A stretch of DNA of 32,784 nt. Origin: a virus. Made by a program: the position numbers and the translations under genes. The notes below the pieces were generated by a model, which was not told the origin of the DNA, did not search any database, and saw nothing but the letters and a program-made list of their open reading frames with translations. The first letter of the stretch is position 1. Every line of letters starts with the position of its first letter. This document shows positions 5,605-32,784 of this stretch, piece by piece. Location of the stretch: positions 1 to 32,784 of the IMG/VR virus record IMGVR_UViG_3300032053_006264; one strand, given 5' to 3'.

Positions 5605-5900
5605 TGCTTAATAACGAAAATATTTTTTTGCTTTATGTTTTGAATGGGATAGAATAGGGTTACCAGAAAGATTCTCTCTGACAATCATTTCTCTCTAAAA
5701 AACATGTATAAATAATCCGAAGATAGTCTTAGATGAATCCGAATCTGATACCTTAGTGATCAACCTTTAGACCCTACCTAAAGTAAGTACCTAAAGATAC
5801 CTGCCTGGAGCGAAACGAAGTGAAGCGACACTGACGCGAAGCGGCAGTAAGATAGTCTATACTTCCTTCAATGGCTAGGTAAGTGTTGTTGGGATATGGT
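5605..5900 (+). other. 296-nt noncoding region with repeats and promoter signals
   Basis: No reading frame of useful length is visible. The region holds a weak sigma70-like promoter (TTGCTT 5628-5633, TAGAAT 5650-5655, 16-nt spacer), an exact late promoter at 5707-5714, and AAGATAGTCT at both 5720-5729 and 5849-5858. It also has CTTTAG (5765-5770) pairing with CTAAAG at 5778-5783 or 5791-5796, and a purine-rich GCGAA/ACGAA/GTGAA stretch flanked by CTGCC (5801-5805) and GGCAG (5843-5847). A TATACT at 5858-5863 has no clear -35. It may be a long structured leader or a small RNA; the function is unknown. Confidence 0.5.
5707..5714 (+). promoter_or_regulatory. T4-type late promoter, TATAAATA
   Basis: This is an exact match to the T4 late -10 element recognised by gp55 with gp33 and the gp45 clamp. 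It is intergenic and oriented toward the secreted repeat-domain gene, with an expected start near 5720 and a leader of about 180 nt. T4-like late transcription is consistent with the clamp encoded in the same window. Confidence 0.65.
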
Positions 5901-17272: not shown

Positions 17273-18517
17273 ATGGCTGATCCAACGTCTTTAGCTGAAA
17301 GTGCCCAAGCATTATTTTGTGCGCTTGCAGATTATCTTGGTGCTGCTGGTGCCAAGAAAATGTTAGATACTGAGGTCTATCCCACCTTTTCCTCATTTAA
17401 GATGGAATGGGAAAAGACTCAAAAATCAATGCCCCTGGCCACGGTATTTTCGACCCATGTAAAAACTCCTGGGGTGACGTTGAGGGACCTGGAGTCGTTT
17501 TTTAGTAAAAATCTAGATTGGTATGTCTCTTCGATGAATATCGCAAAGAAGTTGATTAGTGATATCACTGATGTATCAGGTAAGTTCACTCGCATTAAAC
17601 AACCGAAGTGGTCTGACTTCATCTATACGCGCGGTGATGAAGATGTGATGAAATCGGTTGAGGAATTATTTAAGTTGGCGAACGAGACACAGAAGAAAGC
17701 GTCCTCACTACCAGGTGGGAAACATCATCTGGTATTTGGGGATGTTAATAAATGGAGTCCTGCCGACATTTATTTTGCGTCTGAAAAGGCGAAACGAAAA
17801 ATCAAAACCCTTCTCTTGGAACATCAGAGTCTTCCTTTGGATTTCATCACACTCAACTCCGAAGTGGGTCATTTGATCGATCTAGGGGAATTACTTCCAT
17901 TGTCGCTTAAAAAGACAACGAAAAAAGAGGTCACAATCCTCAAAGTCAATTTTGATCGGAAGCATGAAATCGACTACATGAGAGAATATGTGTATGCCGG
18001 GCATGTTGTGTGGTCGCCATGGGTCAAACCTAAAGCTGATGGGAAAACGGTTAGTAGATCGTTTGAAATATATTTTGATACCACGAATAAAGGTCGGCGT
18101 TTGAAATGGCGACACGATGCGTCAACTGCTGCAATGAAATTTGAGGTTGTGGAAACAGGAAAGGAAGCCCGCGAAGGATCGATTGGTTCGGTTTCTATTC
18201 TTGCTGATCTTATGTCTATCACCGATGGTAATACCACATTTAGCCGGAAATTCAACACCCTATATGAGACGGGAAATGACAAATATAAGCAACTGGTTCG
18301 TACCCCTGTTATGACACAACTAAAAACCCGTAATCGTGAGGCATATGATAGAGCTAGGAGCGAATCTAGTGCGCTCCATGTGTCGAATCCAGTCATTCCT
18401 ATCTTTAGGGATTGGTTAGAACGCGACAAAAAGAAAAGCACAGAATTTGTTCGTTTGGTGTTTTCGTATATTACTTCCCGTTCCGATTTATCCGGTAAGT
18501 TTGTTATTGCCAAATAA
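17273..18517 (+). CDS. conserved-looking hypothetical protein (414 aa)
   Basis: ATG 17273 follows GGAGG; the in-frame ATG at 17261 lies before that site. I do not recognise the family. Visible features: a helical N-terminus starting MADPTSLAESAQ, a central KHHLVFGDVNKWSPADIYFAS segment followed by KAKRKIKTLL, then a helix leading to LNSEVGHLIDLGELLPLSLKK, and a basic C-terminal half with RDWLERDKKKS. The KWSPADI and LLPLSLKK segments look like conserved motifs of a structured enzyme or virion protein. L7-A-E9-S10 fits the prohead-protease site pattern loosely. It is followed after 13 nt by the ligase-like gene, so they may be expressed together, perhaps late. Confidence 0.6.
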   Translation: MADPTSLAESAQALFCALADYLGAAGAKKMLDTEVYPTFSSFKMEWEKTQKSMPLATVFSTHVKTPGVTLRDLESFFSKNLDWYVSSMNIAKKLISDITDVSGKFTRIKQPKWSDFIYTRGDEDVMKSVEELFKLANETQKKASSLPGGKHHLVFGDVNKWSPADIYFASEKAKRKIKTLLLEHQSLPLDFITLNSEVGHLIDLGELLPLSLKKTTKKEVTILKVNFDRKHEIDYMREYVYAGHVVWSPWVKPKADGKTVSRSFEIYFDTTNKGRRLKWRHDASTAAMKFEVVETGKEAREGSIGSVSILADLMSITDGNTTFSRKFNTLYETGNDKYKQLVRTPVMTQLKTRNREAYDRARSESSALHVSNPVIPIFRDWLERDKKKSTEFVRLVFSYITSRSDLSGKFVIAK

Positions 18518-18530
18518 CAGGAAAGCCACT

Positions 18531-19766
18531 ATGACAACATCCTTTACCTCCTTTATCACAGAATCCGCCGAAGGCAAGAACCTCCATCTTGAACACCTGG
18601 AAGATGAAGTCTTTAATGGCGGTGTGACTGGTGCTCGGAGGGCCGTGACCTTTCTGTTGTCTCTCCATAAGATGTTGACAGGTCATGTGGAATCTCATAT
18701 CAATATCACGACCAAATGGGATGGCGCGCCGGCTATTTTTTGTGGTATCAATCCTGACAATGGTCGATTCTTTGTGGGGACCAAAGGGGTCTTTGCGAAG
18801 GAGGCGAAATTGAATTATACCCCTGCGGATATCAAGAGGAATCATGCCTCCGAAGGTCTTCAGAACAAGCTGTTGATTGCCTTGGAACATCTACCCAAAC
18901 TCGGTATTACTGGTGTCCTTCAGGGTGATATGCTGTATACCCACGGCGATCTGCAAAAGGATGTGATTGATGGGGAAAAATATCTCACCTTTCAGCCGAA
19001 TACGATTGTGTATGCGATTCCAAGTGACTCGGTCTTAGCCAATCGTATTCGCGCTTCCAAGTTGGGTGTGGTGTTTCATACGACCTATCATGGTCCCACG
19101 ATGGCATCTATGAAGGCGTCCTTCAAAGTGGATATCGGCGCCTTGCGTCATACGGCCGATGTATGGTATCGGGATGCGTCATTTGTGGATCAATCAGGTA
19201 CGGCAAATTTTACCGAAGTGGAATCAACAGTCCTGGGGGATCTATTAGCCCAAGCGGGCCGGGTGTTTCAGAGCATCGATGGTAAAGTGTTGAATCGAAT
19301 TTCCTTGGATGCCACGCTGCTAGGACAGATCAAGCAGTACAACAATTCCCTGATACGAGCAGGAAAGGCGCAACCGACCGCCAAAGATCATGTTCTAGCA
19401 TTAACTCGCTGGGTCGAACAACAGGCCAATGAATCTATCCTACAAGCCAAGCTACCAGCAACCAAACATAAGCGTCTGGCCGAAAAGAGTGAATGGTTGC
19501 GGTTTTACCGGTCGTCCTATGCCGAACTGGTCAAAATTTTTCTCTTGACAAATCTGCTGAATGATGCTAAAATACAGATTGTCAGAAAATTGGAAACGGC
19601 GAAGTCTATGGGCACCTTCCTTCGCTCTGCCGATGGGGGATTGACGGTGACGAAACCTGAAGGCTTTGTGGCCGTGGACCACTTGAAAGGCGGAGTCGTG
19701 AAGCTGGTAGATCGTTTGAATTTCTCTCAAGCGAATTTTAATGCGACCAAGAATTGGACCACATAA
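18531..19766 (+). CDS. ATP-dependent ligase-like nucleotidyltransferase with capsid-targeting-like N-terminus
   Basis: The 411-aa product resembles a phage family (DUF6267-like) with a nucleotidyltransferase core. The motif I lysine is in TKWDGAPAIF (K62-x-D64-G65). ITGVLQGDMLY (G128, G132, D133) fits motif III, and GGVVKLVDR near the C-terminus fits motif V. It may join or adenylylate nucleic acid ends; the substrate is unknown. The N-terminus MTTSFTSFITESAEGK has F5-x-x-F8-I9-x-E11-S12, close to the start of T4 internal head proteins (F-I-x-E-A), where the prohead protease cuts after Glu. This hints at packaging in the head. ATG 18531 has AGGAAA upstream; the longer frame overlaps the previous gene. 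Confidence 0.75.
   Translation: MTTSFTSFITESAEGKNLHLEHLEDEVFNGGVTGARRAVTFLLSLHKMLTGHVESHINITTKWDGAPAIFCGINPDNGRFFVGTKGVFAKEAKLNYTPADIKRNHASEGLQNKLLIALEHLPKLGITGVLQGDMLYTHGDLQKDVIDGEKYLTFQPNTIVYAIPSDSVLANRIRASKLGVVFHTTYHGPTMASMKASFKVDIGALRHTADVWYRDASFVDQSGTANFTEVESTVLGDLLAQAGRVFQSIDGKVLNRISLDATLLGQIKQYNNSLIRAGKAQPTAKDHVLALTRWVEQQANESILQAKLPATKHKRLAEKSEWLRFYRSSYAELVKIFLLTNLLNDAKIQIVRKLETAKSMGTFLRSADGGLTVTKPEGFVAVDHLKGGVVKLVDRLNFSQANFNATKNWTT
19545..19573 (+). promoter_or_regulatory. possible internal promoter ahead of the glycan cassette
   Basis: TTGACA at 19545-19550 and TAAAAT at 19568-19573 are 17 nt apart, and the -35 box is preceded by TC as in most other promoters here. The site lies inside the ligase-like gene about 190 nt before its end and would feed the 48-aa gene and the glycan genes. 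Coding constraint makes chance possible. Confidence 0.5.
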
Positions 19767-19926: not shown

Positions 19927-20805
19927 ATGAAAGACCTTGTGATCGGTGCTATCAGCAACTACAACTTCGATCAGATCAAACTGTGGGCCAATTCCTTAGA
20001 GCAATCGGGGTTCGACGGGTATAAGATGTTGGTGTGTTACAACATCGACAGCGATACCTCCGATCAACTTGCTCGCCGAGGATTTATTCTTTGTGGTCTC
20101 TATGTGGATGACTTTGGTACGTTTAGTGCTGATCCTTCATTGTCTATTGTAGTGAATCGCTTCCTCCATTATTGGATCTTCCTGCGCCAACTCTCTCCTG
20201 AGATAAAGAATGATATTCGGTATGTTATTGCTACCGATGTCAAGGATGTGGTCTTTCAACGCAATCCCTCAGAGTATTTCAATCAATGGGACAATCAAGG
20301 TGAGTCTCCTGCTGTGGTGGCGGCCAGTGAATCGATGCGCTATCGGGATGAAGAATGGGGTGTGAATAATCTTCTTTCTTCGTTTGGACCCGCGGTCGGT
20401 ACCTCGTTATTGGATGCCGCGATTCATAACTGTGGATCGTTTGCTGCAAAGTTTGAGACGGCATTAGGTCTATTCCTTTCGATCTATCTGTTGTCGAATG
20501 GGACCAAACACCATCAGCCTGGGGGTGGCGGGCCCGATCAAGCGGCATTGAACATCTTGTTGAATACCGAAGCTTATCATCGACATTTGTATAGTGCCAC
20601 ATCAGAAGATGGATGGGCTGCACAACTCGGTACGACGATGGACCCAAACAAAATAGGGGTCTATCGACCGCTTCTTTTGGAGCCTGCTCCTATTGTCTTG
20701 AATGATCAAGTCTGTACCTCCCACGGCACCCCACATTATTTGGTCCATCAGTATGATCGTGTGCCTGCCCTGAAGGCGATCTATGAGGCCAAGTATGGCA
20801 ATTAG
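19927..20805 (+). CDS. glycosyltransferase-like protein (GT-A fold)
   Basis: ATG 19927 has GGAG upstream. The 292-aa product begins with KDLVIGAISNYNFDQIKLW, a nucleotide-sugar-binding strand and helix. It has YVIATDVKDVVFQ near 98-110, the usual acidic motif of GT-A enzymes that handle a metal-bound sugar nucleotide, followed by NPSEYF. Later GGGGPDQAALN resembles the catalytic-region helix of such enzymes. It has no membrane segment. It opens the 10-kb glycan cassette and overlaps the next transferase, so it probably adds one sugar of the same glycan. Donor and acceptor are unknown. Confidence 0.7.
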   Translation: MKDLVIGAISNYNFDQIKLWANSLEQSGFDGYKMLVCYNIDSDTSDQLARRGFILCGLYVDDFGTFSADPSLSIVVNRFLHYWIFLRQLSPEIKNDIRYVIATDVKDVVFQRNPSEYFNQWDNQGESPAVVAASESMRYRDEEWGVNNLLSSFGPAVGTSLLDAAIHNCGSFAAKFETALGLFLSIYLLSNGTKHHQPGGGGPDQAALNILLNTEAYHRHLYSATSEDGWAAQLGTTMDPNKIGVYRPLLLEPAPIVLNDQVCTSHGTPHYLVHQYDRVPALKAIYEAKYGN

Positions 20806-21772
20806 AATACTGTTTGTAGTCCATCGGTATGCTCCCTATCCAGGCGGATCGGAGAACAATGTCAAGAACATGGCCGAGGAAATGGTCCGTCGAGGCGTAG
20901 AGACCTGGGTGTTTGCAGGTCAACACCAGGGGGATCTGAATGGGGTCCATGTGTCGAACAACCTAGAAATACTCCTCCATCCGTGGAATCTGATCATTGT
21001 CCATGGCGGCGATGTCAATGTGCAAAACTTTGTCTTGGAACATGCGCCGAATATTCCGTCTCCCATCTTGTATCTGTTGATTCTTCCGTCGAATTCTCCG
21101 ACCTGTGTGAAGGCCCTCCAGACTGCGCGATATATCGGGGCCTCGACCCTGGCGGATTGGAGGCATGTGAAGAAGCATGGGGTGGAAATGAAGTGTATGC
21201 AATACCGTTATGGGATCAATTTGGATGATTCGGTCTCTGAGAGTCCCCAGGGAGCATTTCGGACCCGTTATGGGATCACAACCGAATATATGTTTATTTC
21301 CTGTGGTGGTTATTGGCCCAATAAAAATATGGTCCGTTTGGTTGAGGCGTTTCGAAAGGCGAATCGAAAGGATGTGACCTTAGTCCTGACTGGATATGAT
21401 TGTTGGCAGTCTGCTCCTGTGATTGGACCCACGGACCAGATCAAGGTCCTGATGATGCCAGATCGTCGAGAAGTCTTGGCTGGCATCAAGGATGCAGATT
21501 TGTATATTATGCACTCGACCTCAGAGGGATTTGGTATCGTGCTGTTGGAAGCTATGTTGAATCACACACCCTGGGCGGCCTATTTCATGGCAGGCGCAGA
21601 AACGATGCGGGATTATGGATTCACTTATCAATGGGAGGAAGAATTGATCGCCTATATGCGACAATTCAAAGGCGTCTCTGATCTCACGCGAGATGAAGCC
21701 TACAGCTATACCGTCGGTAATCATACCAACAAACAATGTGTGGATGACATTCTTCTCTTGGTGCAACAATGA
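20795..21772 (+). CDS. GT4-family glycosyltransferase
   Basis: The 325-aa product has a GT-B fold layout: an N-terminal ILFVVHRYAPYPGGSENNVKNMAEEMVRRG with the GG donor/acceptor loop, then a second Rossmann half starting FISCGGYWPNKNMVRLVEAF. The C-terminal STSEGFGIVLLEAMLNHTPW carries the E-x(7)-E type motif (SEGFGIVLLEA) that holds the nucleotide sugar. It is a retaining transferase of the group common in LPS and capsule clusters. The start at 20795 has GAGG before it; it overlaps the previous gene by 11 nt and its stop overlaps the GMD start. Confidence 0.85.
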   Translation: MAIRILFVVHRYAPYPGGSENNVKNMAEEMVRRGVETWVFAGQHQGDLNGVHVSNNLEILLHPWNLIIVHGGDVNVQNFVLEHAPNIPSPILYLLILPSNSPTCVKALQTARYIGASTLADWRHVKKHGVEMKCMQYRYGINLDDSVSESPQGAFRTRYGITTEYMFISCGGYWPNKNMVRLVEAFRKANRKDVTLVLTGYDCWQSAPVIGPTDQIKVLMMPDRREVLAGIKDADLYIMHSTSEGFGIVLLEAMLNHTPWAAYFMAGAETMRDYGFTYQWEEELIAYMRQFKGVSDLTRDEAYSYTVGNHTNKQCVDDILLLVQQ

Positions 21773-22746
21773 AAACAGCACTGATCACCGGGATTACCGG
21801 GCAGGATGGATCATACCTCGCCGAACTGCTCCTGGAGAAGGGGTATGAGGTCCACGGCATCGTGCGACGAGTCGCCATAGAAGATCCGAGCCATCGGATG
21901 CACCGCTTGCTGCCGTTCAAAGACCGTCTCCATCTTCATGCGGCCTCCTTGGAAAGCTATCCGAGCATTTATCGAGTCTTCACCAAATTACAACCAGACG
22001 AGTGTTACCATCTGGCCGCACAAAGCTTTGTCTCCTATTCGTTCGAAGATGAATTCTCCACACTCCAGACGAACATTGGTGGCACCCATCATGTCCTCTC
22101 TGCCTTAAAGGATGCGTCTCCCCGTACTCGATTTTATTTTGCTGGATCAAGTGAGATGTTTGGGAAAGTCGAAGCCATGCCTCAGGATGAAGGCACCCGA
22201 TTTCATCCTCGTTCGTCCTATGGGATCTCCAAGGTGGCAGGATATGAATTGACCCGTAACTATCGGGAAGCGTATGGACTCCATTGTTCCACAGGCATCT
22301 TGTATAATCATGAATCACCTCGCCGTGGATTTGAGTTTGTGACCCGAAAGATCAGTTCCACGGTCGCCCAGATTTCATTAGGGCAAGCCACAGAACTGTC
22401 CTTGGGGAATCTGAATGCCCTCCGTGATTGGGGGCATGCCAAAGAATATGTTCGGGCCATGTGGCTCATGCTCCAACAGGATACCCCCGATGATTATGTC
22501 ATTGCTACCGGAGTGGCACATTCGGTCCTAGACTTTGTTCAGGCGGCCTTTGAGTATGTGGGTCTGAACTACATAAATTATGTGACCGTGAACCCCCAGT
22601 TCTATCGTCCAGCAGAAGTCGAAGTCTTGCTCGGCGATCCTACAAAAGCCCATAGGAAATTGGGATGGAAACATTCGATTGATTTTACTGAATTAGTGGA
22701 AGAGATGGTGGAGTCAGATATCCAATATTATAAAGATAGGAGATAG
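21769..22746 (+). CDS. gmd: GDP-mannose 4,6-dehydratase
   Basis: GMD converts GDP-D-mannose to GDP-4-keto-6-deoxy-D-mannose using bound NADP. The 325-aa SDR has G8-x-x-G11-x-x-G14 in GITGQDGSYLAE, the YHLAAQSFVSYSFE loop, the active-site segment SSEMFGKV (127-134), and Y151-x-x-x-K155. ILYNHESPRRGFEFVTRK is a hallmark of GMD proper. It is somewhat shorter than E. coli GMD (373 aa). The start is in an ATGA overlap with the GT4 gene. Its product is the substrate of the GDP-fucose synthase encoded at 27738 and perhaps of the SDR at 25062. Confidence 0.93.
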   Translation: MKTALITGITGQDGSYLAELLLEKGYEVHGIVRRVAIEDPSHRMHRLLPFKDRLHLHAASLESYPSIYRVFTKLQPDECYHLAAQSFVSYSFEDEFSTLQTNIGGTHHVLSALKDASPRTRFYFAGSSEMFGKVEAMPQDEGTRFHPRSSYGISKVAGYELTRNYREAYGLHCSTGILYNHESPRRGFEFVTRKISSTVAQISLGQATELSLGNLNALRDWGHAKEYVRAMWLMLQQDTPDDYVIATGVAHSVLDFVQAAFEYVGLNYINYVTVNPQFYRPAEVEVLLGDPTKAHRKLGWKHSIDFTELVEEMVESDIQYYKDRR

Positions 22747-22749
22747 ATT

Positions 22750-23424
22750 ATGGGAGAAGCATTCGTTATTGATACCACCAGAGGCACGGTCAGACCTGTT
22801 GACGGTACGACCGGAGGCCCGATACCAGGATCGACCGATCCCTTCCATCATTTGCCCCCAGTAGAATGGGTCCAGAAGCAAATTGAGTGGGGCGTGAATC
22901 ACATCTCAGCTTCAGGGCTGATCGACCCGCTCAAGTCAATTGCGCCGGTTGTAGGGGCGGAAATTGGGACCTGCCTAGGGTTTAGTGCGGAATTGTTCCT
23001 CAAAGAACTGCCGAGTCTTCAAACGCTGTACTGTGTGGATCATTATCCCACATTCATCGATTGGAACGGAACCGTCATGAGTGAGGAACGCCAGGCCTGT
23101 ATGAAGGGTGATGCCCTTCAGCGATTGTCGGCCTATGGTACACGCGCCCAATTACGGTATCAGACCAGTGAACAGTTTGCTCTAGAATTCGGAGTCTCCT
23201 CAAAGATACAGTACCTTGACTTCATTTTTGTGGATGGGGATCATTCGTTCGAAGGCGTCATGAAGGATTTTACCTTGTATTGGGATCACATCAGGCCGGG
23301 AGGAATCTTTGCCGGGCATGATTGGAACCTCCCGACCGTCCAACAGGCCGTGAAGACCTTCTTCCCTGATCCGAGCAAAGTGGTGAGTGTAAGCAATGAG
23401 GGATGGTACATCGTCAAATCATGA
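22750..23424 (+). CDS. class I SAM-dependent methyltransferase
   Basis: ATG 22750 has AGGAG upstream, four bases after the GMD stop. The 224-aa product has a methyltransferase-24-like core: VVGAEIGTCLGFSAELF (SAM motif I), TLYCVDHYPTF (acidic end of strand 2), DFIFVDGDHSFEGVMKDF (motif with DGDHS) and RPGGIFAGHDW. Enzymes with this core in glycan clusters methylate sugars or transferred groups. A glycan hydroxyl is the likely target from context only. About 65 N-terminal residues before the core are Pro- and Thr-rich. Confidence 0.82.
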   Translation: MGEAFVIDTTRGTVRPVDGTTGGPIPGSTDPFHHLPPVEWVQKQIEWGVNHISASGLIDPLKSIAPVVGAEIGTCLGFSAELFLKELPSLQTLYCVDHYPTFIDWNGTVMSEERQACMKGDALQRLSAYGTRAQLRYQTSEQFALEFGVSSKIQYLDFIFVDGDHSFEGVMKDFTLYWDHIRPGGIFAGHDWNLPTVQQAVKTFFPDPSKVVSVSNEGWYIVKS

Positions 23425-24050
23425 ATGAACTAAAAAATCTCAGTATCGTGAATGAGAACAGCTTTCTGAGTAATAGTTTCTGGCATACCACACCGGTCAA
23501 TGATGGCCATTGGGGTGTGCTAACGCCTGACTGGCCGAATCTCAAACGAGTCCTGGAAACCCATACGACCGAACGACGAACCATCGTCTCGGCCGGTGGC
23601 CACATTGGATTATATGCGTGTGGCTATGCGGAATTATTCAAGACGGTGTATGTGTTTGAACCTGATCCCCTGCATTTTTATTGTTTGGTCAATAATGTCC
23701 AGTTCCCGAATGTGATCAAACTGCAATGCGCCGTTGGGGAGAAGCCTTCTATGGGCGCGATGGTCGGTAATGGCATGGGAGCGCGGGTCGATTCCAGTGG
23801 CGAGAATCTCTGTCTCCCCATTGTTCCGATTGATGCCTTCCAGTTTCCTACGGTGGATGTGATTCAACTCGATGTTGAGGGGTATGAACTCCAGGCCTTG
23901 AAGGGCGCCATTGATACCATCATGACCCATCATCCGCTGTTGATTATTGAAAATGGTCATCAGCAGAATTTTGTTGACTTTCTCACCCTATTAGGATATA
24001 CTATAATAGAGAGAATGCAATGGGATACGGTTTGGGGATGGGGGAATTAG
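23421..24050 (+). CDS. FkbM-family methyltransferase
   Basis: The 209-aa product starts in an ATGA overlap with the previous methyltransferase. The SAM-binding core has TIVSAGGHIGLYACGYAELF, YVFEPDPLHFYCLVNNV and, near the C-terminus, VDVIQLDVEGYELQALKGA followed by HPLLIIEN, the typical FkbM signature (D-V-E-G-x-E). These enzymes O-methylate sugars or polyketides. An in-frame ATG at 23403 lies inside the preceding gene and is less likely. Context points to a glycan substrate. Confidence 0.85.
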   Translation: MNELKNLSIVNENSFLSNSFWHTTPVNDGHWGVLTPDWPNLKRVLETHTTERRTIVSAGGHIGLYACGYAELFKTVYVFEPDPLHFYCLVNNVQFPNVIKLQCAVGEKPSMGAMVGNGMGARVDSSGENLCLPIVPIDAFQFPTVDVIQLDVEGYELQALKGAIDTIMTHHPLLIIENGHQQNFVDFLTLLGYTIIERMQWDTVWGWGN

Positions 24051-24057
24051 AAAGAAT

Positions 24058-25065
24058 ATGAGCCGAAAATATAATAAAATCATTATCTGGGGCGCCAAGT
24101 TCGATTCGGGGCATACCCATGCCTTTGTCCACGAGCCGTTGATGCGGGCCGCACAATATCTTGGGTATCCAGCCTATTGGCTCGATAATCGGGATCTCCC
24201 CCATCTCCCTGTAGAATTCTTTGATCATGCCTTGGTGATCTCGGAGCAATGGTTGGTCTTTGCGAATAGTTTCTCCAATCAATTACCCCTGAGACCGACA
24301 TCGGCCTATCTGATTCATTATCTTGGTAACAAAGGTCCCATAGAAGGGAATCCTGGTGCCTCGATGTATCTTGGTAAGGTGGGGAAGTTGATTGATTTCC
24401 GCTTTGCATGTAATTGGGGCGTGGATGGAGTACCGGATAAGAATTATGCCTATCACTTCGACAAGTCTGCTTGTACGCCTATCAATGAGGGTACGTCCTT
24501 TCTACAGCAAGACGGTCCTGTGACCCTCTTCTATTCGATGTGGGCAACAGATTTGATGCCAGAGGAGATTCATGTCGAAGATCGCTATCGGATACCCGTG
24601 AAACCCTATCATGCGTTTTTTGGTGGGACCATCCGTGAGGACAATAAGGAAATGTTTGATCCTTTTATTCGGGCTTGTATCGATCACAAGATGCCATTCT
24701 ATTACAACACCCCATGGCAGAACCCCTTGCCAGTGAATCAAATCCGCCTAGCGGTGACGAATGCGTATTTGGCCCTGGATGTCAGACCCCGCAATCATTT
24801 AGCGAATAAGTATATCTCATGCCGTATCATGAAAAACATCAGCTATGGACAACTAGGATTAACGAATTGTCCCGCGACCTATGAATTTTTTGAGGGGGAT
24901 GTGGCATTCCATTCCAATCCCTATGCGCTCTTTGATGTGGCCTGTGAGATGAAACAAGATCCCCACACCCTTGACAAGATCCTTCGACAAATGACGAAAA
25001 TCAAAGAGAAACACACCTATGTCAATCGTTTACGGGATATGATTACTGCGGCGGAGGCGGAATGA
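24058..25065 (+). CDS. glycosyltransferase-like protein of unknown specificity
   Basis: The 335-aa product begins NKIIIWGAKFDSGHTHAFVHEP, a Rossmann-like strand and loop, and ends with a segment typical of the donor half of GT-B enzymes: NHLANKYISCRIMKNISYGQ, GLTNCPATYEFFEGDVAFHS. No full catalytic signature is evident, so the assignment rests on this C-terminal pattern and on its place among glycan genes. It could also be a related carbohydrate-binding or transfer enzyme. Its stop overlaps the next start by four bases. Confidence 0.55.
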   Translation: MSRKYNKIIIWGAKFDSGHTHAFVHEPLMRAAQYLGYPAYWLDNRDLPHLPVEFFDHALVISEQWLVFANSFSNQLPLRPTSAYLIHYLGNKGPIEGNPGASMYLGKVGKLIDFRFACNWGVDGVPDKNYAYHFDKSACTPINEGTSFLQQDGPVTLFYSMWATDLMPEEIHVEDRYRIPVKPYHAFFGGTIREDNKEMFDPFIRACIDHKMPFYYNTPWQNPLPVNQIRLAVTNAYLALDVRPRNHLANKYISCRIMKNISYGQLGLTNCPATYEFFEGDVAFHSNPYALFDVACEMKQDPHTLDKILRQMTKIKEKHTYVNRLRDMITAAEAE

Positions 25066-26078
25066 AAACAGCATTGATTACAGGCATCACGGGCATGGTG
25101 GGATCGCATTTGGCGGACTATCTGTTACAACACACCGATTGGAACATCGTCGGCATGTATCGTTGGGCAGATGCCCTACACAACATCGGGCATTTACTTG
25201 AACGAATCAATACCAAAAATCGCGTGAGTTTGAGTTATGGTGATCTGACCGATGCTGGAAGTCTGGACCGACTGATCGAGGAATGCCGTCCTGATTACGT
25301 CTTTCATCTGGCCGCACAAAGTTTTCCCCTGACGAGTTTTAGTGCCCCGATCAACACCTTAGATACCAATATCCAGGGTACATTGCGACTTCTGGAATCC
25401 TTGCGTAAGTACTCGCCGCTCGCGGCCATTCATGTCTGTTCGTCATCCGAGGTCTTTGGTCGCGTTCCCAAAGAAAAATTACCGATCAACGAAGAATGTT
25501 CCTTCCATCCGGCTTCCCCGTATGCTATTTCAAAAGTTGGTACCGATCTGATTGGTCGTCATTATGCGGAGGCGTATCATATGACGGTCATGACCACGAG
25601 GATGTTTACTCATACGGGACCGCGGAGGGGTGATGTCTTTGCGGAATCTTCCTTTGCCAAACAAATTGCGATGATTGAAGCGGGATATACCAAAGACCCT
25701 GTCGTGAAGGTGGGAAATCTTCAGAGCCTTCGGACCTTTGCGGATGTGCGAGATGCCGTTCGGGCGTATCATATGCTCCTGACCGTCAATCCGATTGGTG
25801 GACAGTACTACAATATAGGGGGTACGCATACCGCAACAATCGAGGATATGTTGAAGACCTTGATTTCCTTTTCGGTTATGAAAGATGAGATTCGGATTGA
25901 AGTTGATTTGAGCCGTCTTCGTCCCATTGATGCGGATCTACAAGTACCCGACACCAGAAAGTTTGAAGCCCATACCGGATGGAAGCCAGAAATTCCATTT
26001 GAACATACCATGATGGATTTGTTGAACTATTGGCGCGAGGAAGTGACCGTACAATATGGACAATTTTTGACGCGATAG
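25062..26078 (+). CDS. NAD(P)-dependent sugar-nucleotide dehydratase/reductase (GMD/RMD-like SDR)
   Basis: The 338-aa extended SDR starts MKTALITGITGMVGSHLADY, nearly identical at its first ten residues to the GMD at 21769. It has HLAAQSFPLTSF, the CSSSEVFG active-site strand, and Y154-x-x-x-K158. TRMFTHTGPRRGD and LRTFADVRDAVRAY are typical of GDP-4-keto-6-deoxymannose reductase (RMD) or related 4,6-dehydratases. If RMD, the cluster would make GDP-D-rhamnose as well as GDP-L-fucose. A GDP-talose or CDP-sugar enzyme cannot be excluded. It begins in an ATGA overlap and is preceded by GGAGG. Confidence 0.82.
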   Translation: MKTALITGITGMVGSHLADYLLQHTDWNIVGMYRWADALHNIGHLLERINTKNRVSLSYGDLTDAGSLDRLIEECRPDYVFHLAAQSFPLTSFSAPINTLDTNIQGTLRLLESLRKYSPLAAIHVCSSSEVFGRVPKEKLPINEECSFHPASPYAISKVGTDLIGRHYAEAYHMTVMTTRMFTHTGPRRGDVFAESSFAKQIAMIEAGYTKDPVVKVGNLQSLRTFADVRDAVRAYHMLLTVNPIGGQYYNIGGTHTATIEDMLKTLISFSVMKDEIRIEVDLSRLRPIDADLQVPDTRKFEAHTGWKPEIPFEHTMMDLLNYWREEVTVQYGQFLTR

Positions 26079-26087
26079 GAGTAGAGG

Positions 26088-26741
26088 ATGGATAATCAAC
26101 ATGTTCCTGTGGGTCGTGCAATGCACAAAGGACCCGCACAACTAGGGCAAGACCTTCTGGTCGATAAAATCCTTAACGGCAAATACCATGGCGCGTTTGT
26201 TGATATTGGCTGCTCCTTTCCTGAACAGTTCAGTAACACCTGGTACCTTGAGAAGGAAAGAGGCTGGCAGGGTATTGGGATCGATGTGGACCCAGCATAT
26301 GCTCAGCCATGGGCAGACTATAGACCTCAAAGTTGCTTTATTCTAACTGATGCCACGACCCTAGATTATGAACGGTTATTTAGGGACGTTCAATTTCCTA
26401 TCTGTATTGATTTTCTTTCCATTGATATTGAGCCCCCAGAAGCATCCTGGGTCGTGCTACAACGGGTCCTAGAGACTTCCTTTACGTTCAATGTCATTGC
26501 GTTTGAGGTAGACTATGGAGGCGATTGTATAAATCCAGAGAGATTTTCGACGCGGGATGTTTCCAGGGAATTACTACGATCCAAGGGATATATCCTTCTG
26601 AAGGAGGTGTACACATATGCGTTTGGATGGCCTTTAGATTCTCCACACGAACCCCCACAACCCGTAGGTTACTGGTATCATGTGGATGATATCTGGGTGA
26701 ATCAAGCAACGTATGATGCAACAGGTGATGTAGAATGTTAA
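26088..26741 (+). CDS. FkbM-like SAM-dependent methyltransferase
   Basis: The 217-aa product has SAM motif I in GAFVDIGCSFPEQFSNTWYLE, an acidic strand-2 end in GIGIDVDPAY, and a later LSIDIEPPEASWVVLQ that replaces the usual D-V-E-G of FkbM enzymes. It ends in a Trp- and Tyr-rich tail. It is likely a third glycan methyltransferase of the cassette. AGTAGAGG precedes ATG 26088. Its stop lies seven bases into the next gene. Confidence 0.72.
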   Translation: MDNQHVPVGRAMHKGPAQLGQDLLVDKILNGKYHGAFVDIGCSFPEQFSNTWYLEKERGWQGIGIDVDPAYAQPWADYRPQSCFILTDATTLDYERLFRDVQFPICIDFLSIDIEPPEASWVVLQRVLETSFTFNVIAFEVDYGGDCINPERFSTRDVSRELLRSKGYILLKEVYTYAFGWPLDSPHEPPQPVGYWYHVDDIWVNQATYDATGDVEC

Positions 26742-27736
26742 TCATTCGAACCCCCTATCGTATTTCCTTTTTTGGTGGAGGCACCGATTATCCCGCTTGG
26801 TATCGAGAACATGGAGGCGCGGTACTGTCGACCACCATCAATAAGTATTCGTTTTTGGTGCTTCGGACCTTACCAGAAATATTTGATTATAAGTATCGGA
26901 TACGGTACTATGATCGTGAGGAAGTCCAAGAGGTGAATCAGATTCAGGTACCTGTGATTCGTGAGGCGATCAAGTATATGAAGATCAACACAGGGATCGA
27001 TATTACCCATCATGGAGACTTACCTAATCGGACAGGGATCGGTTCCAGTTCAAGTTTTGCAGTCTCGTTGATTCATGGTCTTTCTGCCTTGAAGCATCAA
27101 CAAAAGACCAAACGAGAAATTGCTCGCCTGGCCATTACCTTGGAACAAGAAGTCCTCGGTGAGTCGGTGGGATCACAGGATCAAGTGGCCGCTGCCTTTG
27201 GGGGATTCAATCGGATTGAGTTTGGTGGGCAATCGGAATTTATGTGTCATCCCTTGCCACTTCGCGCCGAGGTCGTCAAGGAATTGGAATCCTGGGTCCA
27301 GATATTTTTTACCTCCAAGCTACGGAATTCCTTTGATATTACCGAGAAGAAGATCGAAAATATTCAGAACAAGACCGTGGATCTCAGGGAAATGCAGCAA
27401 TTAACAAAAGAAGCTGAATCGGTCTTGTTTGGGGTGGGATATGATCGAATCCATGATTTTGCCTCCTTGTTGAACACGCAATGGAGACTCAAGAAGGATA
27501 TCGAAACGACCATCACGAACCCAGAAATTGATGCTATCTATGCGGCAGGAATCAAGGCGGGGGCCGTTGGAGGCAAGATCCTGGGTGCAGGTGGAGGGGG
27601 ATTTATTTTGTTCTTGACGCCTCCCGATAAACACGAACAGGTACATACGGCCTTGAAGCTCAAGCAAGTTCCTGTGGCCTTTGAGTTTTTAGGTTCTCAG
27701 TTGATCTATCACGACTATCAAGACCAGGAGAAATAA
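26735..27736 (+). CDS. GHMP-family sugar kinase (HddA-like)
   Basis: The 333-aa product has the three GHMP motifs: RTPYRISFFGGGTDYPAW at 5-22 (motif I), LPNRTGIGSSSSFAVSL at about 97-113 (the phosphate loop), and KILGAGGGGFILF near the C-terminus (motif III). The opening with GGGTD is typical of D-glycero-alpha-D-manno-heptose 7-phosphate kinase and related fucokinase-like enzymes. It would phosphorylate a free or phosphorylated sugar at C1. With the nucleotidyltransferase at 28691 it suggests a heptose-type or salvage branch. The exact sugar is not resolved. Confidence 0.83.
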   Translation: MLIIRTPYRISFFGGGTDYPAWYREHGGAVLSTTINKYSFLVLRTLPEIFDYKYRIRYYDREEVQEVNQIQVPVIREAIKYMKINTGIDITHHGDLPNRTGIGSSSSFAVSLIHGLSALKHQQKTKREIARLAITLEQEVLGESVGSQDQVAAAFGGFNRIEFGGQSEFMCHPLPLRAEVVKELESWVQIFFTSKLRNSFDITEKKIENIQNKTVDLREMQQLTKEAESVLFGVGYDRIHDFASLLNTQWRLKKDIETTITNPEIDAIYAAGIKAGAVGGKILGAGGGGFILFLTPPDKHEQVHTALKLKQVPVAFEFLGSQLIYHDYQDQEK

Positions 27737-27737
27737 C

Positions 27738-28688
27738 ATGGGGAAAATTTATGTGGCGGGGCATCGTGGATTGGTGGGATCGGCCATTTGTGCTGCCCTA
27801 CATCGGGCGGGCGTCAAAGAATCCAACATCATCAAGAAAAGTCGCCAGGAATTGGATCTGCTCGATCCTACGGCCGTAAAATCATTTTTCTCGTCGGAAG
27901 ATGTTGAGCAGGTGTATATGGCGGCGGCCTATGTCGGTGGGGTCTTGGCCAACAATCTCTATCCTGGTATGTTCATCTATAATAATTTGATGATCCAAAC
28001 TAATGTGATCGATGCGGCCGCCTCACATGGAGTCAAGAAGATGGTCTTCCTGGGATCGAATTGTATCTATCCCACTGACGCACCACAGCCTATCAAGGAA
28101 GAATCGCTGATGCGTGGCCCGCTGGAACCGACCAATGAACCGTATGCGGTTGCCAAAATTGCGGGAATCAAAATGTGTGAATCCTATAATCGTGAATATA
28201 AGACCGATTATCGTTCGGTGTTGCCGTGTAACTTATATGGATTGAATGATAACTATCATCCAGAACACGGGCATATCACCGCAGGTATGATTCGGACATT
28301 CCATGATGCCAAAAAGAACGATCTGCCTACGGTGAAGGTATGGGGAACGGGGAATCCACGGCGCGAATTTCTGTATGGGGATGATCTGGCCGAGGCGTGT
28401 CTTCTGGTTATGAATACCGAAAAGACGGTATGGGAATCGATTGTCGATCCTCGTTGTAACATGATCAATGTGGGATCGGGTGTGGATCATCCGGTATCTG
28501 AGTTTGCCCGAAAAGTTGCCTATGCCGTTGGATATCAAGGGAAGATTGAATATGATCATACAAAACCTGATGGGGTCATGTCGAAGCTTGCGGATTCTTC
28601 GAAGATCCAATCATTAGGTTGGAAGCCGAAAATCACCTTGTCTGAAGGACTGCATCGGGCATGTATTGACTATCGCCAAAGGTTTTAA
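27738..28688 (+). CDS. fcl: GDP-L-fucose synthase
   Basis: This epimerase-reductase converts GDP-4-keto-6-deoxymannose to GDP-L-fucose with NADPH. The 316-aa product (E. coli Fcl: 321) has GHRGLVGSAI for NADP, the AAAYVGG loop, and catalytic residues at the same numbers as the E. coli enzyme: S107 and C109 in GSNCIYP, Y136 and K140 in YAVAK, and H179 in PEHGHI. GRNPRRE is represented by TGNPRREFLY. It completes the GDP-fucose pathway begun by GMD. AGGAG lies at good spacing before ATG 27738. Confidence 0.94.
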   Translation: MGKIYVAGHRGLVGSAICAALHRAGVKESNIIKKSRQELDLLDPTAVKSFFSSEDVEQVYMAAAYVGGVLANNLYPGMFIYNNLMIQTNVIDAAASHGVKKMVFLGSNCIYPTDAPQPIKEESLMRGPLEPTNEPYAVAKIAGIKMCESYNREYKTDYRSVLPCNLYGLNDNYHPEHGHITAGMIRTFHDAKKNDLPTVKVWGTGNPRREFLYGDDLAEACLLVMNTEKTVWESIVDPRCNMINVGSGVDHPVSEFARKVAYAVGYQGKIEYDHTKPDGVMSKLADSSKIQSLGWKPKITLSEGLHRACIDYRQRF

Positions 28689-28690
28689 TT

Positions 28691-29122
28691 ATGAAAATTG
28701 TTATTGCATCAGGTGGATTTGATCCTCTCCATAGCGGGCACGTCAGCTACCTTCATGAGGCCTCGTTATTGGGGGATATTCTGATTGTTGGAATCAACTC
28801 CGATTCTTGGTTGATTTCTAAAAAAGGTAACTATTTCCTTCCCTGGCATGAACGGGCCTATTTGGTGCAGAATCTCCGTATGGTGTCTAGTGTCAGGACC
28901 TTTGATGATCACGATGGCACCGCATTAGATTTACTCCATCAGGTGCGGGCTCAGTTTCCCTACTATCATTTGGTCGTGGCCAACGGGGGTGATCGGACCT
29001 CACTAAATAATGCTGAAGCGGCGTTTGTGGATGATAATCATGAATTTGTCTTTGGTGTCGGGGGTACGCAGAAAGTGAATGCGTCCTCGGCAATTTTGAA
29101 GCGATGGAAGGAGTTACCATGA
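28691..29122 (+). CDS. cytidylyltransferase-like nucleotidyltransferase
   Basis: The 143-aa product has the HxGH motif in GGFDPLHSGHVSYL (H14-S-G-H17), a following LIVGINSDSWL, and a C-terminal VNASSAILKRW where the S-S-x-x-(I/L) signature would be. This resembles the C-terminal domain of HldE (ADP-heptose synthesis) and glycerol-3-phosphate cytidylyltransferase. VVANGGDRT is typical of the heptose group. It probably activates a phosphorylated sugar or polyol, perhaps the product of the adjacent GHMP kinase. Its stop overlaps the next ATG. Confidence 0.82.
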   Translation: MKIVIASGGFDPLHSGHVSYLHEASLLGDILIVGINSDSWLISKKGNYFLPWHERAYLVQNLRMVSSVRTFDDHDGTALDLLHQVRAQFPYYHLVVANGGDRTSLNNAEAAFVDDNHEFVFGVGGTQKVNASSAILKRWKELP

Positions 29123-29670
29123 TCATTGACATTGGTTCAGGGCCCCACCCCAAGGCAGATGCCGACATTCGCATGGACCTTCATAAGTGGCCCTATGTGA
29201 ATTGCCAACACGATCTGTTGATCACACCCTATCCCTTTGCTGCCAACACCTTTTCGAAAGTGTATATGGGTGATGTGGTTGAGCATATCACCATTTTTGA
29301 TGTGGATCGGGTGCTGGATGAAGTCTATCGTATTTTAGCCCCTGAAGGTATGCTTGAAGTCACCGTTCCTGATCTGAGATGGATTGCCGAGCGCATTGTG
29401 AAGAATGATTGGAAAGAACAATGTGGTGAAATCGGTTGGCTCAATCAACACACCAATCCCTGGCAGAACGCCATGAGCTATCTCTATGGTGGATTTCAGA
29501 ATGTGGACGAATATAAGCTCGCCGGGATGGGTCATGTCAATGGGTTCGATGCCGCGTCCCTGAGCAATCTTCTGGCGCGTCATGGATTTAGGGATATCTA
29601 TCGTGAAGCCGATCATCGAAATCCCCCACCAGGTAACCAATCAGTACTCAAAATGTTGGGCCGTAAATAG
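29119..29670 (+). CDS. class I SAM-dependent methyltransferase (type 11-like)
   Basis: ATG 29119 has AAGGAG upstream and an ATGA overlap with the preceding stop. The 183-aa product is a compact methyltransferase: IIDIGSGPHPKADADIRMDL (motif I and strand 2), FSKVYMGDVVEHI with the D-V-V/L-E-H motif, VYRILAPEGMLEVTVPD, and a C-terminal L-L-A-R-H-G-F segment. Such small enzymes are frequent next to glycosyltransferases in bacterial and phage clusters. The substrate is unknown. Confidence 0.84.
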   Translation: MIIDIGSGPHPKADADIRMDLHKWPYVNCQHDLLITPYPFAANTFSKVYMGDVVEHITIFDVDRVLDEVYRILAPEGMLEVTVPDLRWIAERIVKNDWKEQCGEIGWLNQHTNPWQNAMSYLYGGFQNVDEYKLAGMGHVNGFDAASLSNLLARHGFRDIYREADHRNPPPGNQSVLKMLGRK

Positions 29671-29678
29671 GAGAGATT

Positions 29679-30191
29679 ATGATCTTAGTGGCACATCGAG
29701 GCAATCTATATGGCCGACAGCCCGAACGGGAAAATAGCCCAGAGTACCTCAATGAGGCCATCAATCAAGGCTATCATGTCCTGGCAGATACCTGGTATTA
29801 TGATCATTGTTTCTGGTTTGGTTTTCATCATCCCAAGGATACCTCTCTGTGTTATAAGCCCCATGTTGATTGGCTCCCCTATGCGATGAATTCGGTTTTA
29901 CTCAGGGCCCGAAATCCTGAGGCCCTCATAAAGGCTAATGAACTAGGACTGAATGCGTTTTGGCATCAAACTGATTCCTATAGCCTCACCACATGGGGAG
30001 ACTTGTTGGGATTTTACGGGGCCCCGGCCTGTGGGGAATCGTTTGTGTGTATGATGCCGCATCGTGAGTGTTCTCTGGTAGATGATCAATATCTGGACGA
30101 ATTATCTGGACATCATGATCAGTATGCACTCTGCTCGGATCATGCAGGCAGCCTGGTGGAATACCTTAATCGGAACCCGGCACTTGTATAA
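29679..30191 (+). CDS. GDPD/PI-PLC-like phosphodiesterase fold with altered active site
   Basis: The 170-aa product looks like a glycerophosphodiester phosphodiesterase: ILVAHRGNL with H6-R7 and ENSPEYLNEAINQGY with E18-N19. However, the usual V-E-x-D-x-W is V-L-A-D37-T-W here, so the metal-binding Glu is Leu. The usual G-H-D-x-P is G-F-H-H-P, so the second catalytic His appears displaced. It may be inactive as a GDPD or have changed specificity. It ends the glycan cassette; AGGAG lies before ATG 29679. The late promoter at 30187 overlaps its stop. Confidence 0.68.
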   Translation: MILVAHRGNLYGRQPERENSPEYLNEAINQGYHVLADTWYYDHCFWFGFHHPKDTSLCYKPHVDWLPYAMNSVLLRARNPEALIKANELGLNAFWHQTDSYSLTTWGDLLGFYGAPACGESFVCMMPHRECSLVDDQYLDELSGHHDQYALCSDHAGSLVEYLNRNPALV

Positions 30192-30194
30192 ATA
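30187..30194 (+). promoter_or_regulatory. T4-type late promoter, TATAAATA
   Basis: An exact TATAAATA lies at the end of the preceding gene, with an expected start near 30200 and a 36-nt leader containing AGAGGGG before ATG 30236. It is better placed than the 5707 copy and marks the 803-aa gene as late-expressed. Confidence 0.72.
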
Positions 30195-30235
30195 ACAGAT
30201 AACATCCATTCCCAAGATCCTGTAGAGGGGTTTTC

Positions 30236-32647
30236 ATGTTATCTGAACTGTTCATACCAAAATATTCATTGAATATTGACCGGGAATCCCTCCCCCAGGT
30301 CAAGTCAGCCGATCTGTTCAATTACTTCCAATATCTCAAACACCAGAATAAGATTACCTTTCTCCAGACCAAGGTGCCTGCGAACCTGTTGACGGCTGCC
30401 CAGGGCAATTTCAATACCTCCAAGGTCGAGCATTTCATGTCAAAGGACCGAGAGGACCTGGATGTGCCTGTGATAATCTCCAGTGATTTCATTATCATGG
30501 ACGGTCATCATCGTTGGCTCGCGCTCTTGAATCAGAACCCCCATGTTCCAATTTCTGTCTATAAAGCCTCAGCAAAGATTGCGGATCTGATCGATGCCAC
30601 CAAAGCGTATCCCAAGTCCTTTACCAAAAAAGTCACTGAACAGGTCAATGAAGCCACAGAGAAACATTCCGTCCTGACCTTTGGCCGCATGAATCCACCA
30701 ACCGCCGGACACGCCAAGCTTGTCCATAAGGTCCACGAAGTCGCCCAGGAACATCATGCCGATCATCATGTGGTCGTGAGTCATTCCCAAGATGCCGAAA
30801 AGAATCCATTGAGCACGGCCGATAAGCTCAAGCACGCCAAGAAAGCCTTTCCAGGTACGCATGTCACGGCGTCTTCCCCCAAACATCCTACGATTTTTCA
30901 TCATGCCGCCCTGCTTCATAAGGCGGGCACCAAGCATCTTCATGTGGTCGTGGGATCAGATCGGGTCAAGGAATTCCATGACTCATTACATAAATATAAT
31001 GGCCACTTCGATAAAGAAGGTCATGGGTTTAAGTTCAAGTCTATCACGGTCCATTCAGCCGGTCACCGGGACCCTGATGCCAAAGGAGTTGAAGGAATGT
31101 CAGCCAGCAAGATGCGCGAACATGCCAAAAAAGGTAACTATTCTGAATTCAAGAAGGGTGTGGCGCCATCCGCAACGGCCCATGCCAGGGAATTGTATCA
31201 TGATGTCCGTAAAGGACAAGGTCTGCATGAGTCCGTGACGCATCCATCCCCATTGAGCCTCAAGTGGGCCAATTTCAAATCCCAGGATCAACAAGCATCG
31301 AACATATCCTCTGCGCCATTAAACGAGGACACTGAGTATCTGATGGAAGGCGTCCATGATCAAGGGATCTTCAAGGCGGTCTTCCTGGCAGGCGGACCTG
31401 GATCAGGTAAAGACTTTGTGATGCACAAGTCCCTGGACGGCCATGGTATGGTCGAAATCAATTCAGACGTGGCCTTGGAATACATGATGGACAAGAAGAA
31501 GCTGGACAAGAAGATGCCAGAGTCCGAAAAGGATCAACGGGATGCCGTGCGGGCCCGCGCTAAGTCTGTCACAGACCTCCGTCATCGTCTGGCCCTGCAT
31601 GGGAAGAATGGGATGATTATCAATTCCACAGGAGACGATAAGACCAAAATCAAGAAACTCAAGGGTATGTTGGAAGACGAGGGGTATGATGCCAAACTCG
31701 TCTTTGTTCATGCTTCCGATAAAGTCTCGGCCGACCGCAATATCGCCCGCGGTCAACGGGGTGGTCGCATGGTCCCAGAGAAGATTCGCGCGGCCAAATG
31801 GCAGAAGTCACAGGATCAGCGGGTCGACTATGCCAAGATGTTTGGGACCGATAACTATCATGAATATGATAATTCAGAAGATCATAAGACGGCGCCACCT
31901 GAGGTCGTGCAACAAAAAGAAGAAGAATTGGCCGATCTCCATAAGACCATCAAGAAATTTACCCAGGCGCCACCTGCCCATCCAGCGGCCCAGCAATGGA
32001 TTGCGAAATCATTGGGGAATCTGATTAATCAACCGAAGATGGCCACAAAGCTCATCAAAGACGCACCTCCAAAGTTCACAGGACCAAAAATGAAACCTGT
32101 GAAGTCTAATCCCGATCCTAATTCTGAGGCCTCTGAGGAAGCCCGAGCCAAGGGATTGGAATATTATGGATTTGGAAAGTACGGAAAGGGTGGCCAAGTC
32201 ACCCATTTCTCCTTGCATGGGAAGCTGCAACAACGTGAGGCCCCTCCGACGCCAGAAGAGAAGAAACGTGCTGCCGAGACTACCAAAGCAAAAACAGCAA
32301 CACCGCCTCGGAAGAAAGCGGTCAATGAAGCATTTGAAGCCTTCCTCATGGAAGCCGTTGATGGACCTGTCGGCACATTCGAGAAGGCCAAGGAACTCGG
32401 TCATACCGGAACACAAATGCACTTGAATACCCTGTATAAGAAGCGCGATGCCCTACCAAAAGAGCATCATACTGAATGGAATAAAGAAATTCGGAAATTT
32501 GAAGCGGCCAAGCTGCATCTCGCGCCGCCAGCACCGCCCGCGCCTGCGGCACCTGCCAAGAAGTCCTTGTCGGAAATGATGAATGCCCTCCGTGGTATTC
32601 CGACGCAATACGTAGAAGAATTCGACGAACCGGATGATCGGACATAA
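30236..32647 (+). CDS. multidomain ParB-like / nucleotidyltransferase / P-loop kinase protein with prohead-protease-like sites
   Basis: The 803-aa product has a ParB-like domain at about 20-115 (MDGHHRWLALL at 88-98) and an HxGH-family nucleotidyltransferase at about 143-325 (TFGRMNPPTAGHAKLV, GMSASKMREHA). A P-loop kinase of zeta-toxin or polynucleotide-kinase type lies at about 378-560 (FLAGGPGSGKDF at 383-394, EINSDVALEYM after it). A Lys/Pro/Ala-rich linker and a C-terminal helical region follow. The junctions carry VNE139-A140, LME371-G372, VNE698-A699 and LME706-A707, which fit the T4 prohead protease pattern (hydrophobic-x-E before A/G/S). The last one lies in FEAFLMEA, like T4 internal-protein starts. 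I infer a capsid-packed polyprotein. Substrates are unknown. Confidence 0.72.
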   Translation: MLSELFIPKYSLNIDRESLPQVKSADLFNYFQYLKHQNKITFLQTKVPANLLTAAQGNFNTSKVEHFMSKDREDLDVPVIISSDFIIMDGHHRWLALLNQNPHVPISVYKASAKIADLIDATKAYPKSFTKKVTEQVNEATEKHSVLTFGRMNPPTAGHAKLVHKVHEVAQEHHADHHVVVSHSQDAEKNPLSTADKLKHAKKAFPGTHVTASSPKHPTIFHHAALLHKAGTKHLHVVVGSDRVKEFHDSLHKYNGHFDKEGHGFKFKSITVHSAGHRDPDAKGVEGMSASKMREHAKKGNYSEFKKGVAPSATAHARELYHDVRKGQGLHESVTHPSPLSLKWANFKSQDQQASNISSAPLNEDTEYLMEGVHDQGIFKAVFLAGGPGSGKDFVMHKSLDGHGMVEINSDVALEYMMDKKKLDKKMPESEKDQRDAVRARAKSVTDLRHRLALHGKNGMIINSTGDDKTKIKKLKGMLEDEGYDAKLVFVHASDKVSADRNIARGQRGGRMVPEKIRAAKWQKSQDQRVDYAKMFGTDNYHEYDNSEDHKTAPPEVVQQKEEELADLHKTIKKFTQAPPAHPAAQQWIAKSLGNLINQPKMATKLIKDAPPKFTGPKMKPVKSNPDPNSEASEEARAKGLEYYGFGKYGKGGQVTHFSLHGKLQQREAPPTPEEKKRAAETTKAKTATPPRKKAVNEAFEAFLMEAVDGPVGTFEKAKELGHTGTQMHLNTLYKKRDALPKEHHTEWNKEIRKFEAAKLHLAPPAPPAPAAPAKKSLSEMMNALRGIPTQYVEEFDEPDDRT

Positions 32648-32659: not shown

Positions 32660-32784
32660 ATGGAACCTCTCAGAGAAGCATACAAAGTTGGTGATCATGT
32701 CGTACCCAAGATCGGCCCCCATGCAGGACAGGTCCATCGGGTGATTCATGTCCATGACACTGGGCATCTGAATATTACCCCCGT
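32660..32784 (+). CDS. partial KOW-like small protein, cut by the window end
   Basis: ATG 32660 follows AAGGAG at usable spacing, 12 nt after the preceding stop. The 41 visible residues read MEPLREAYKVGDHVVPKIGP and continue with HAGQVHRVIHVHDTGHLNI, a KOW-like pattern (GD-x-V, GP-x-x-G-Q). L4-R-E6-A7 resembles a protease-site motif again, but this is weak in such a short piece. The rest lies outside the window. Confidence 0.6.
   Translation, partial: MEPLREAYKVGDHVVPKIGPHAGQVHRVIHVHDTGHLNITP

Follow-up and report, generated by a model that had tools for sequence, protein, structure and literature searches.

The gene P0001, located at positions 30236–32647 on the + strand and encoding 803 amino acids, quite probably specifies a cargo polyprotein that is packed into the phage head and cut by the prohead protease. 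This degree of confidence covers packaging and cleavage, not the substrate. On the side of the present analysis it is based on module homology, conservation of the candidate sites, the prohead protease and gp23 of relatives and a conserved late promoter, while the presence of homologous modules in virions was taken from the literature and from database records. The ORF had been described in an earlier note on this DNA and proved to be real, with an ATG start and widespread relatives.

The window, that is, the whole stretch of DNA analysed, covers 32.8 kb of a T4-like phage genome and has PHROG matches to a gp43-type DNA polymerase, sliding clamp, clamp loader, UvsX and a DnaB-like helicase. 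No head genes were found within these 32.8 kb. Relatives of P0001 were present in four other contigs, from 57% identity up to near-identical, together with one stand-alone kinase. Using the kinase as a profile, the family became much larger, with at least 551 stretches confirmed among the 600 candidates listed. The C-terminal 212 residues had no relative among phage isolates. The gene order of the window (UvsX, helicase, phrog_1462, DUF6267, 10-kb sugar cassette, polyprotein) agrees with that of phage HTVC008M (UvsX, helicase, unknown, DUF6267, small ORF, kinase, transferase). The cassette at 19927–30191, between DUF6267 and the polyprotein, holds sugar/nucleotide-sugar and methyltransferase functions, including a glycosyltransferase, three epimerase-type genes and a HIGH adenylyltransferase at 28691; at this position, HTVC008M and Melnitz have adjoining genes instead. 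Elsewhere in the window, a 714-aa ORF (5883–8027), whose N-terminus resembles a leader and which contains a proline-rich stretch, gave no PHROG match, and it has a relative in contig G001.

Three enzyme-like domains had been proposed for the protein. The nucleotidyltransferase and the kinase were supported by profiles and the ParB-like part remained sub-threshold, but the count was too low, since at least five modules could be delimited (all on the + strand). Residues 1–136 (30236–30643) form a ParB/DdrB-like module with a DGHHR motif, homologous to LIMEstone1 ORF101 and to an internal module of L054. The best models among members were ParBc_2 (E 0.046) and ddrB-ParB (E 0.17), both below cut-off; with these and the DGHHR motif, the ParB assignment is plausible. 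Residues 140–332 (30653–31231) correspond to a HIGH-superfamily nucleotidyltransferase, with a match over 131–338 to PHROG 3041 (E 2e-61) and 20.5 bits for Pfam CTP_transf_like, just below its 21-bit cut-off. The P-loop kinase of residues 372–597 (31349–32026) is zeta-toxin/polynucleotide-kinase-like, matching Pfam Zeta_toxin (E 6e-12) and AAA_33 (E 3e-11) over 380–533. Then follow a GFGKY/GFGRY module (residues 630–668, 32123–32239), a folded block missing from the earlier list, and a C-terminal helical module (32354–32644, helices at 725–762). The GFGKY/GFGRY module occurs in 35 of the 111 ORFs in the set, and also after the capsid-targeting sequence of S-SM1 SSM1_190.

The AlphaFold model of P0001 has folded blocks at about 142–332, 375–597, 631–668 and 725–762, with low-confidence stretches at 128–140, 333–374, 596–625 and 681–728. 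The transferase was modelled with a pLDDT of about 80, and the ParB module poorly (pLDDT 30–60). A PDB sequence search returned nothing significant for the transferase, the ParB-like module or the DUF6267 protein. The kinase module of L005/L006 has a deletion, and V-D-A stands where most other homologues have the N-S-D motif; this kinase may be inactive or altered.

Candidate cut sites, with the arrow marking the putative scissile position, were found around these modules. The four sites named previously, VNE139↓A, LME371↓G, VNE698↓A and LME706↓A, all exist; LME371 and LME706 follow the strict L/I-x-E consensus of T4, whereas VNE139 and VNE698 are weaker V-x-E sites. In addition, MLSE4↓L, LHE332↓S, LNE364↓D and LSE780↓M were recognized, the last within the C-terminal module. 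The strict sites of P0001 are six (4, 332, 364, 371, 706 and 780), and none lies inside a folded domain of the AlphaFold model: five fall in linkers or termini modelled with low confidence, and the folded transferase ends at E332. The probability of this linker placement by chance was about 0.017 for five of six sites, and 0.0015 with E332 counted as linker.

The candidate N-terminal cut MLSE4↓L (30239–30247, + strand, as for the other sites) is comparable to the cut of T4 Alt after ITE-6 (PMC5694885), and MLSELF is kept in all four ParB-first homologues. Before the transferase, QVNE139↓A (30644–30652) is replaced by LTE↓S in L003/L005 and by LTE↓A in L006; E139 is nearly invariant and aligns with the MKFxxFLxE↓ start of relatives. 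At the transferase end, the glutamate of GLHE332↓S (31223–31231) is invariant in eight of eight aligned transferases and nearly so across 15 proteins. The linker contains PLNE364↓D (31319–31327) and, immediately before the kinase, YLME371↓G (31340–31348), whose L369 and E371 are invariant in 15 proteins. Downstream, AVNE698↓A (32321–32329) appears in relatives as ALNE↓A, SINE↓E or SVNE↓E; both E139 and E698 are off-consensus in P0001, with L-T-E or L-N-E at or near these spots in relatives. The internal capsid-targeting-like motif FEAFLME706↓A (32333–32356) becomes FEDFLAE↓A in L003 and FESFLLE↓D in L006.

Alignment of homologues, suggested in the earlier note as a check, showed the x-E-A/G sites to be kept while the linkers vary in length and content. 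Of 68 non-redundant homologues, 67 had a hydrophobic-x-E site (HxE↓) flush with the kinase edge (all 35 fused ones and 32 of the 33 stand-alone ones), compared with means of 3.1 (fused) and 1.8 (stand-alone) and maxima of 9 and 7 in shuffled windows, although folding of the N-terminal strand could explain part of this conservation. Among 57 non-redundant polyproteins, [LIVMF]xE occurred 839 times in linkers versus 539 ± 20 in shuffles (z 15.1), and 321 times in domains versus 296 ± 15 (z 1.7), both z-scores being inflated by homology among the 57. The contrast between linkers and domains is not explained by relatedness alone.

The same modules are also found as separate genes, and most P0001 relatives and stand-alone modules carry a T4-like N-terminal capsid-targeting sequence. 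Stand-alone kinases start with MFSFKEFTLLDE↓GVHD (L007) or MKTFAELQE↓GVYD (Melnitz), stand-alone transferases with MKKFSEIIE↓A (Melnitz) or MKKFSAFLNE↓A (S-SM1), and DUF6267 proteins with MMKFTQFLAE↓S (DLP6) or MTTSFTSFITE↓S (window). Since stand-alone modules start with capsid-targeting sequences, the glutamate before G372 of P0001 aligns with the last residue of a targeting peptide elsewhere. There are exceptions: the HTVC008M transferase N-terminus, MKTLKELLRKK, has no glutamate, and P0001 itself lacks the classic N-terminal F-x-x-F-[IL]-x-E, starting with MLSE↓LF and carrying the motif internally at 700–707.

Hydrophobic-x-E sites are where modules have been gained, lost or exchanged. L054 (1,309 aa from ATG) corresponds to L053 plus the ParB-like module, with LKE↓ at both module edges. 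The ParB module is first in P0001 and last in DLP6_068, the kinase is first and the transferase last in L092, and in L017 a different transferase occupies the same slot. A HELVHH module, a Pol-beta NTase or other blocks are additionally present in some relatives, and most of these additions have hydrophobic-x-E at their borders. Separately, an ORF in the record of L054, L105:3-917, was observed to combine an ADP-ribosyltransferase (Pfam ADPrib_exo_Tox, E 2e-21) with L-x-E sites and the GFGRY module; it is located shortly upstream of a gp67-like gene. From its sequence, this ORF is a candidate Alt-like cargo in the head operon and parallels T4 Alt.

With regard to expression, the late promoter noticed previously at 30187 was confirmed and is also conserved upstream of homologues. 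This T4-type promoter, TATAAATA (30187–30194, + strand), precedes the start codon by 49 nt and has two exact matches in the window against 0.69 expected. Either TATAAATA or ATAAATA was found at −33 to −49 in 12 of 13 polyprotein or kinase genes checked, from which P0001 is predicted to be made late. Between promoter and gene, a leader hairpin, UCC-UGUAGAG-GGG (30218–30230, + strand), overlaps the ribosome-binding site. Its loop UGUAGAG is invariant in 26 leaders, including those of polyproteins that differ in their first module, and its 3-bp stem is paired in 98% of cells, with seven double-sided changes and a score matched by none of 500 shuffles. It is single copy in the 214-kb and 136-kb contigs of relatives, and a comparison with Rfam gave no family match. 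The hairpin, here and in the L016–L056 leaders, is a candidate translational operator. The 14-mer leader motif alone is unspecific, with no ORF start behind 46 of 79 matches, and is meaningful only in the context of late promoter and start codon. In L178, L180 and L195, the 14-nt leader sequence is also found before ORFs of 207 aa that begin with M[RK]FGFVYLWYDT and resemble GIY-YIG endonucleases, as if the leader had been captured by a mobile gene.

A protease of the required type is available among relatives. A Peptidase_S77 prohead protease was found in six relatives' contigs; in the closest relative, the incomplete contig G001, gp23 was found and the protease was not. T4 gp21 cuts at L/I-x-E, core proteins included (PMC9026906). 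The gp23 junctions of relatives before the expected mature N-terminus (LNE↓A, LTE↓A, LQE↓T, LSE↓A and LNE↓S) are as expected from this rule, and the cut-site pattern of the P0001 family is the same.

The virion evidence concerns homologous modules of other phages and not the phage of the window. The S-SM1 transferase (T4-GC190) was detected by MS in purified virions by Sullivan et al. 2010 (PMC3037559), and when the S-SM1 genome was scanned for capsid-targeting N-termini, the only annotated gene to have one was this transferase. In S-CREM2, the nucleotidyltransferase gp154 was detected in virions (PMC10665884); it starts with MKNFSSFLTE↓A and aligns to P0001. The MS-detected S-CREM2 gp160 has a block in common with the L054 polyprotein, and LIMEstone1 ORF101 is annotated in its record as 'confirmed structural protein'. 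According to the authors of the cyanophage studies, virion detections may include carry-over after CsCl. For gp156, another virion protein of S-CREM2, the similarity to the L092 Pol-beta module did not reach significance (E 0.07) and was rejected.

Other genes of the window may encode sister cargo. One candidate by its N-terminus, with similar N-termini in its homologues, is the DUF6267 gene with a KWDGAPA motif (18531–19766, + strand; Pfam DUF6267, E 3e-107). DUF6267 proteins were observed to contain KWDGAP, GD/EL, EGFV and KLVD motifs, which resemble motifs I, III, IV and V of covalent nucleotidyltransferases (ligases). The phrog_1462 gene (17273–18517, + strand), with the N-terminus MADPTSLAE↓S, is a possible sister cargo, and a second candidate cargo polyprotein starts with MEPLRE↓A at 32660 (+ strand) and runs off the window at 32784. 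A homologue of the latter (L003:12276-13859) extends for about 500 aa to the contig end, with about a dozen HxE↓ sites.

The earlier note had proposed that enzymes are packed, cleaved and injected. Conservation of sites, the N-termini of stand-alone modules and the virion-detected homologues support it, while packaging and cutting of P0001 itself, injection and substrate are inferred. In the proposed mechanism, P0001 would be synthesized late in infection, and its capsid-targeting-like F-x-x-F-L-x-E segments would bring it into the prohead core. There, a gp21-type prohead protease would cut the linkers after hydrophobic-x-E, freeing inside the head the ParB-like module, the nucleotidyltransferase, the kinase and the small accessory modules. 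Together with the DNA, the freed modules would probably be injected into the cell, where they would act during the first minutes of infection. The steps of this scheme, from late synthesis and core targeting to cutting and injection, are adopted here since they are established for T4 Alt and the IP proteins.

A different fate inside the head was also considered, in which only the ends are trimmed and the modules stay joined, as in most of T4 Alt. Alt is cut only near both termini, and FEAFLMEA does lie near the C-terminus of P0001. However, the internal sites are conserved like the terminal ones, they are paired around modules, and at the kinase they turn into N-terminal candidate cut sites when it is a separate gene, which makes trimming of the ends only unlikely. 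A scaffold-like core protein comparable to gp22/gp67, chopped up and lost from the head with enzyme folds as relics, would fit with the fragmentation of core proteins by gp21 at L/I-x-E and with the partly degenerate appearance of the L005/L006 kinases. Against this, the folded domains of P0001 are free of strict sites, the Walker A and HIGH-type motifs are intact among aligned homologues, and the relatives' head operon has separate gp22-like genes, so that this explanation is highly improbable.

The protein could instead be a cytoplasmic bifunctional enzyme acting after infection like NadR (NMN adenylyltransferase plus ribosylnicotinamide kinase), its acidic linkers being uncut flexible spacers. 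The order of NMNAT-like domain and P-loop kinase is that of NadR, which is also the best PDB fold match over both enzymes (E 6e-7), followed by bacterial polynucleotide kinase; NMNAT models match the transferases of L092 and of the NTase-B type of L054, and fusions of HIGH NTase and kinase occur in jumbo phages. Membership of P0001 in NadR was nevertheless rejected, as there was no match to TIGR01526, the kinase is of the different Zeta_toxin/AAA_33 type and candidate cut sites separate the domains. Moreover, kinase and transferase also exist as genes of their own, many of which start with a capsid-targeting sequence, and their order can be reversed (L092), while the late promoter and the virion-detected homologues argue against an early cytoplasmic enzyme. 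This alternative was judged quite unlikely, and the packed and cleaved polyprotein is preferred. For its cargo, a reaction on nucleotides is most likely. Tentatively, and somewhat short of an even chance, the NMNAT-like adenylyltransferase and the kinase may rebuild NAD+ against NAD-depleting defences; possible but less likely is nucleic-acid end repair by a set of enzymes that includes the DUF6267 protein as a partner.

Compared with known systems, the family of P0001 resembles T4 IPI-III and Alt in the F-x-x-F-[IL]-x-E N-termini of most relatives, the L/I-x-E rule, the S77 protease of relatives, the late promoter and the enzyme cargo. The difference is that T4 has one protein per gene, whereas here several unrelated enzyme modules form one chain with sites between them. 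The ADP-ribosyltransferase Alt is cut by gp21 at ITE-6 and LTE-619 (PMC5694885), only near its ends, unlike the candidate sites between modules in P0001. In phiKZ and SPN3US, many head and ejection proteins are likewise cut after x-x-E by an S77-type protease, but the reported cuts remove propeptides (A-x-E or S-x-E) and none separates enzyme modules. The cyanophage 'cytitidyltransferase' T4-GC190, virion-detected and with a capsid-targeting N-terminus, is homologous to the transferase but has a single enzyme domain, whereas P0001 fuses it with kinase and ParB modules.

Polyvalent proteins, including P1 DdrB, are similarly multi-domain and mosaic with a ParB-like module; they are predicted to be virion-packed and injected, and the polyprotein analogy was already drawn by Iyer et al. 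2017 (PMC5512222). In the P0001 family, too, one mosaic chain combines several effector domains that are unrelated to each other. In the portion of that source available here, release is proposed to occur by an embedded MPTase, Alt-clade ARTs are said not to occur in genuine polyvalent proteins, and T4-type capsid targeting or L-x-E linkers are not described (PMC5512222). P0001, by comparison, has candidate linker sites for the prohead protease, and a profile search detected no peptidase domain in it. Since prohead-protease linker sites between enzyme modules are described for neither group, as far as that portion of the source extends, P0001 is regarded as a variant between T4 internal proteins/Alt and polyvalent proteins. 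The open-access literature searched gave no description of multi-enzyme polyproteins that are cleaved in the heads of T4-like phages.

There is about an even chance that T4-like phages widely use such cargo polyproteins, with interchangeable enzyme modules bounded by prohead-protease sites, a dedicated leader hairpin and fixed stoichiometry, cut in the head and injected as a multi-enzyme takeover kit. If the proposal is true, T4-like phages would gain a polyprotein strategy that delivers several enzymes together with the genome, and the recurrent 'cytidyltransferases' in cyanophage virion proteomes would be explained. Hydrophobic-x-E at module edges would serve as a sequence rule to find injected effectors among unknown phage genes, and the literatures on T4 internal proteins and on polyvalent proteins would be joined. 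The modules would then be candidates for counter-defence in the first minute of infection, for example by NAD+ or RNA repair.
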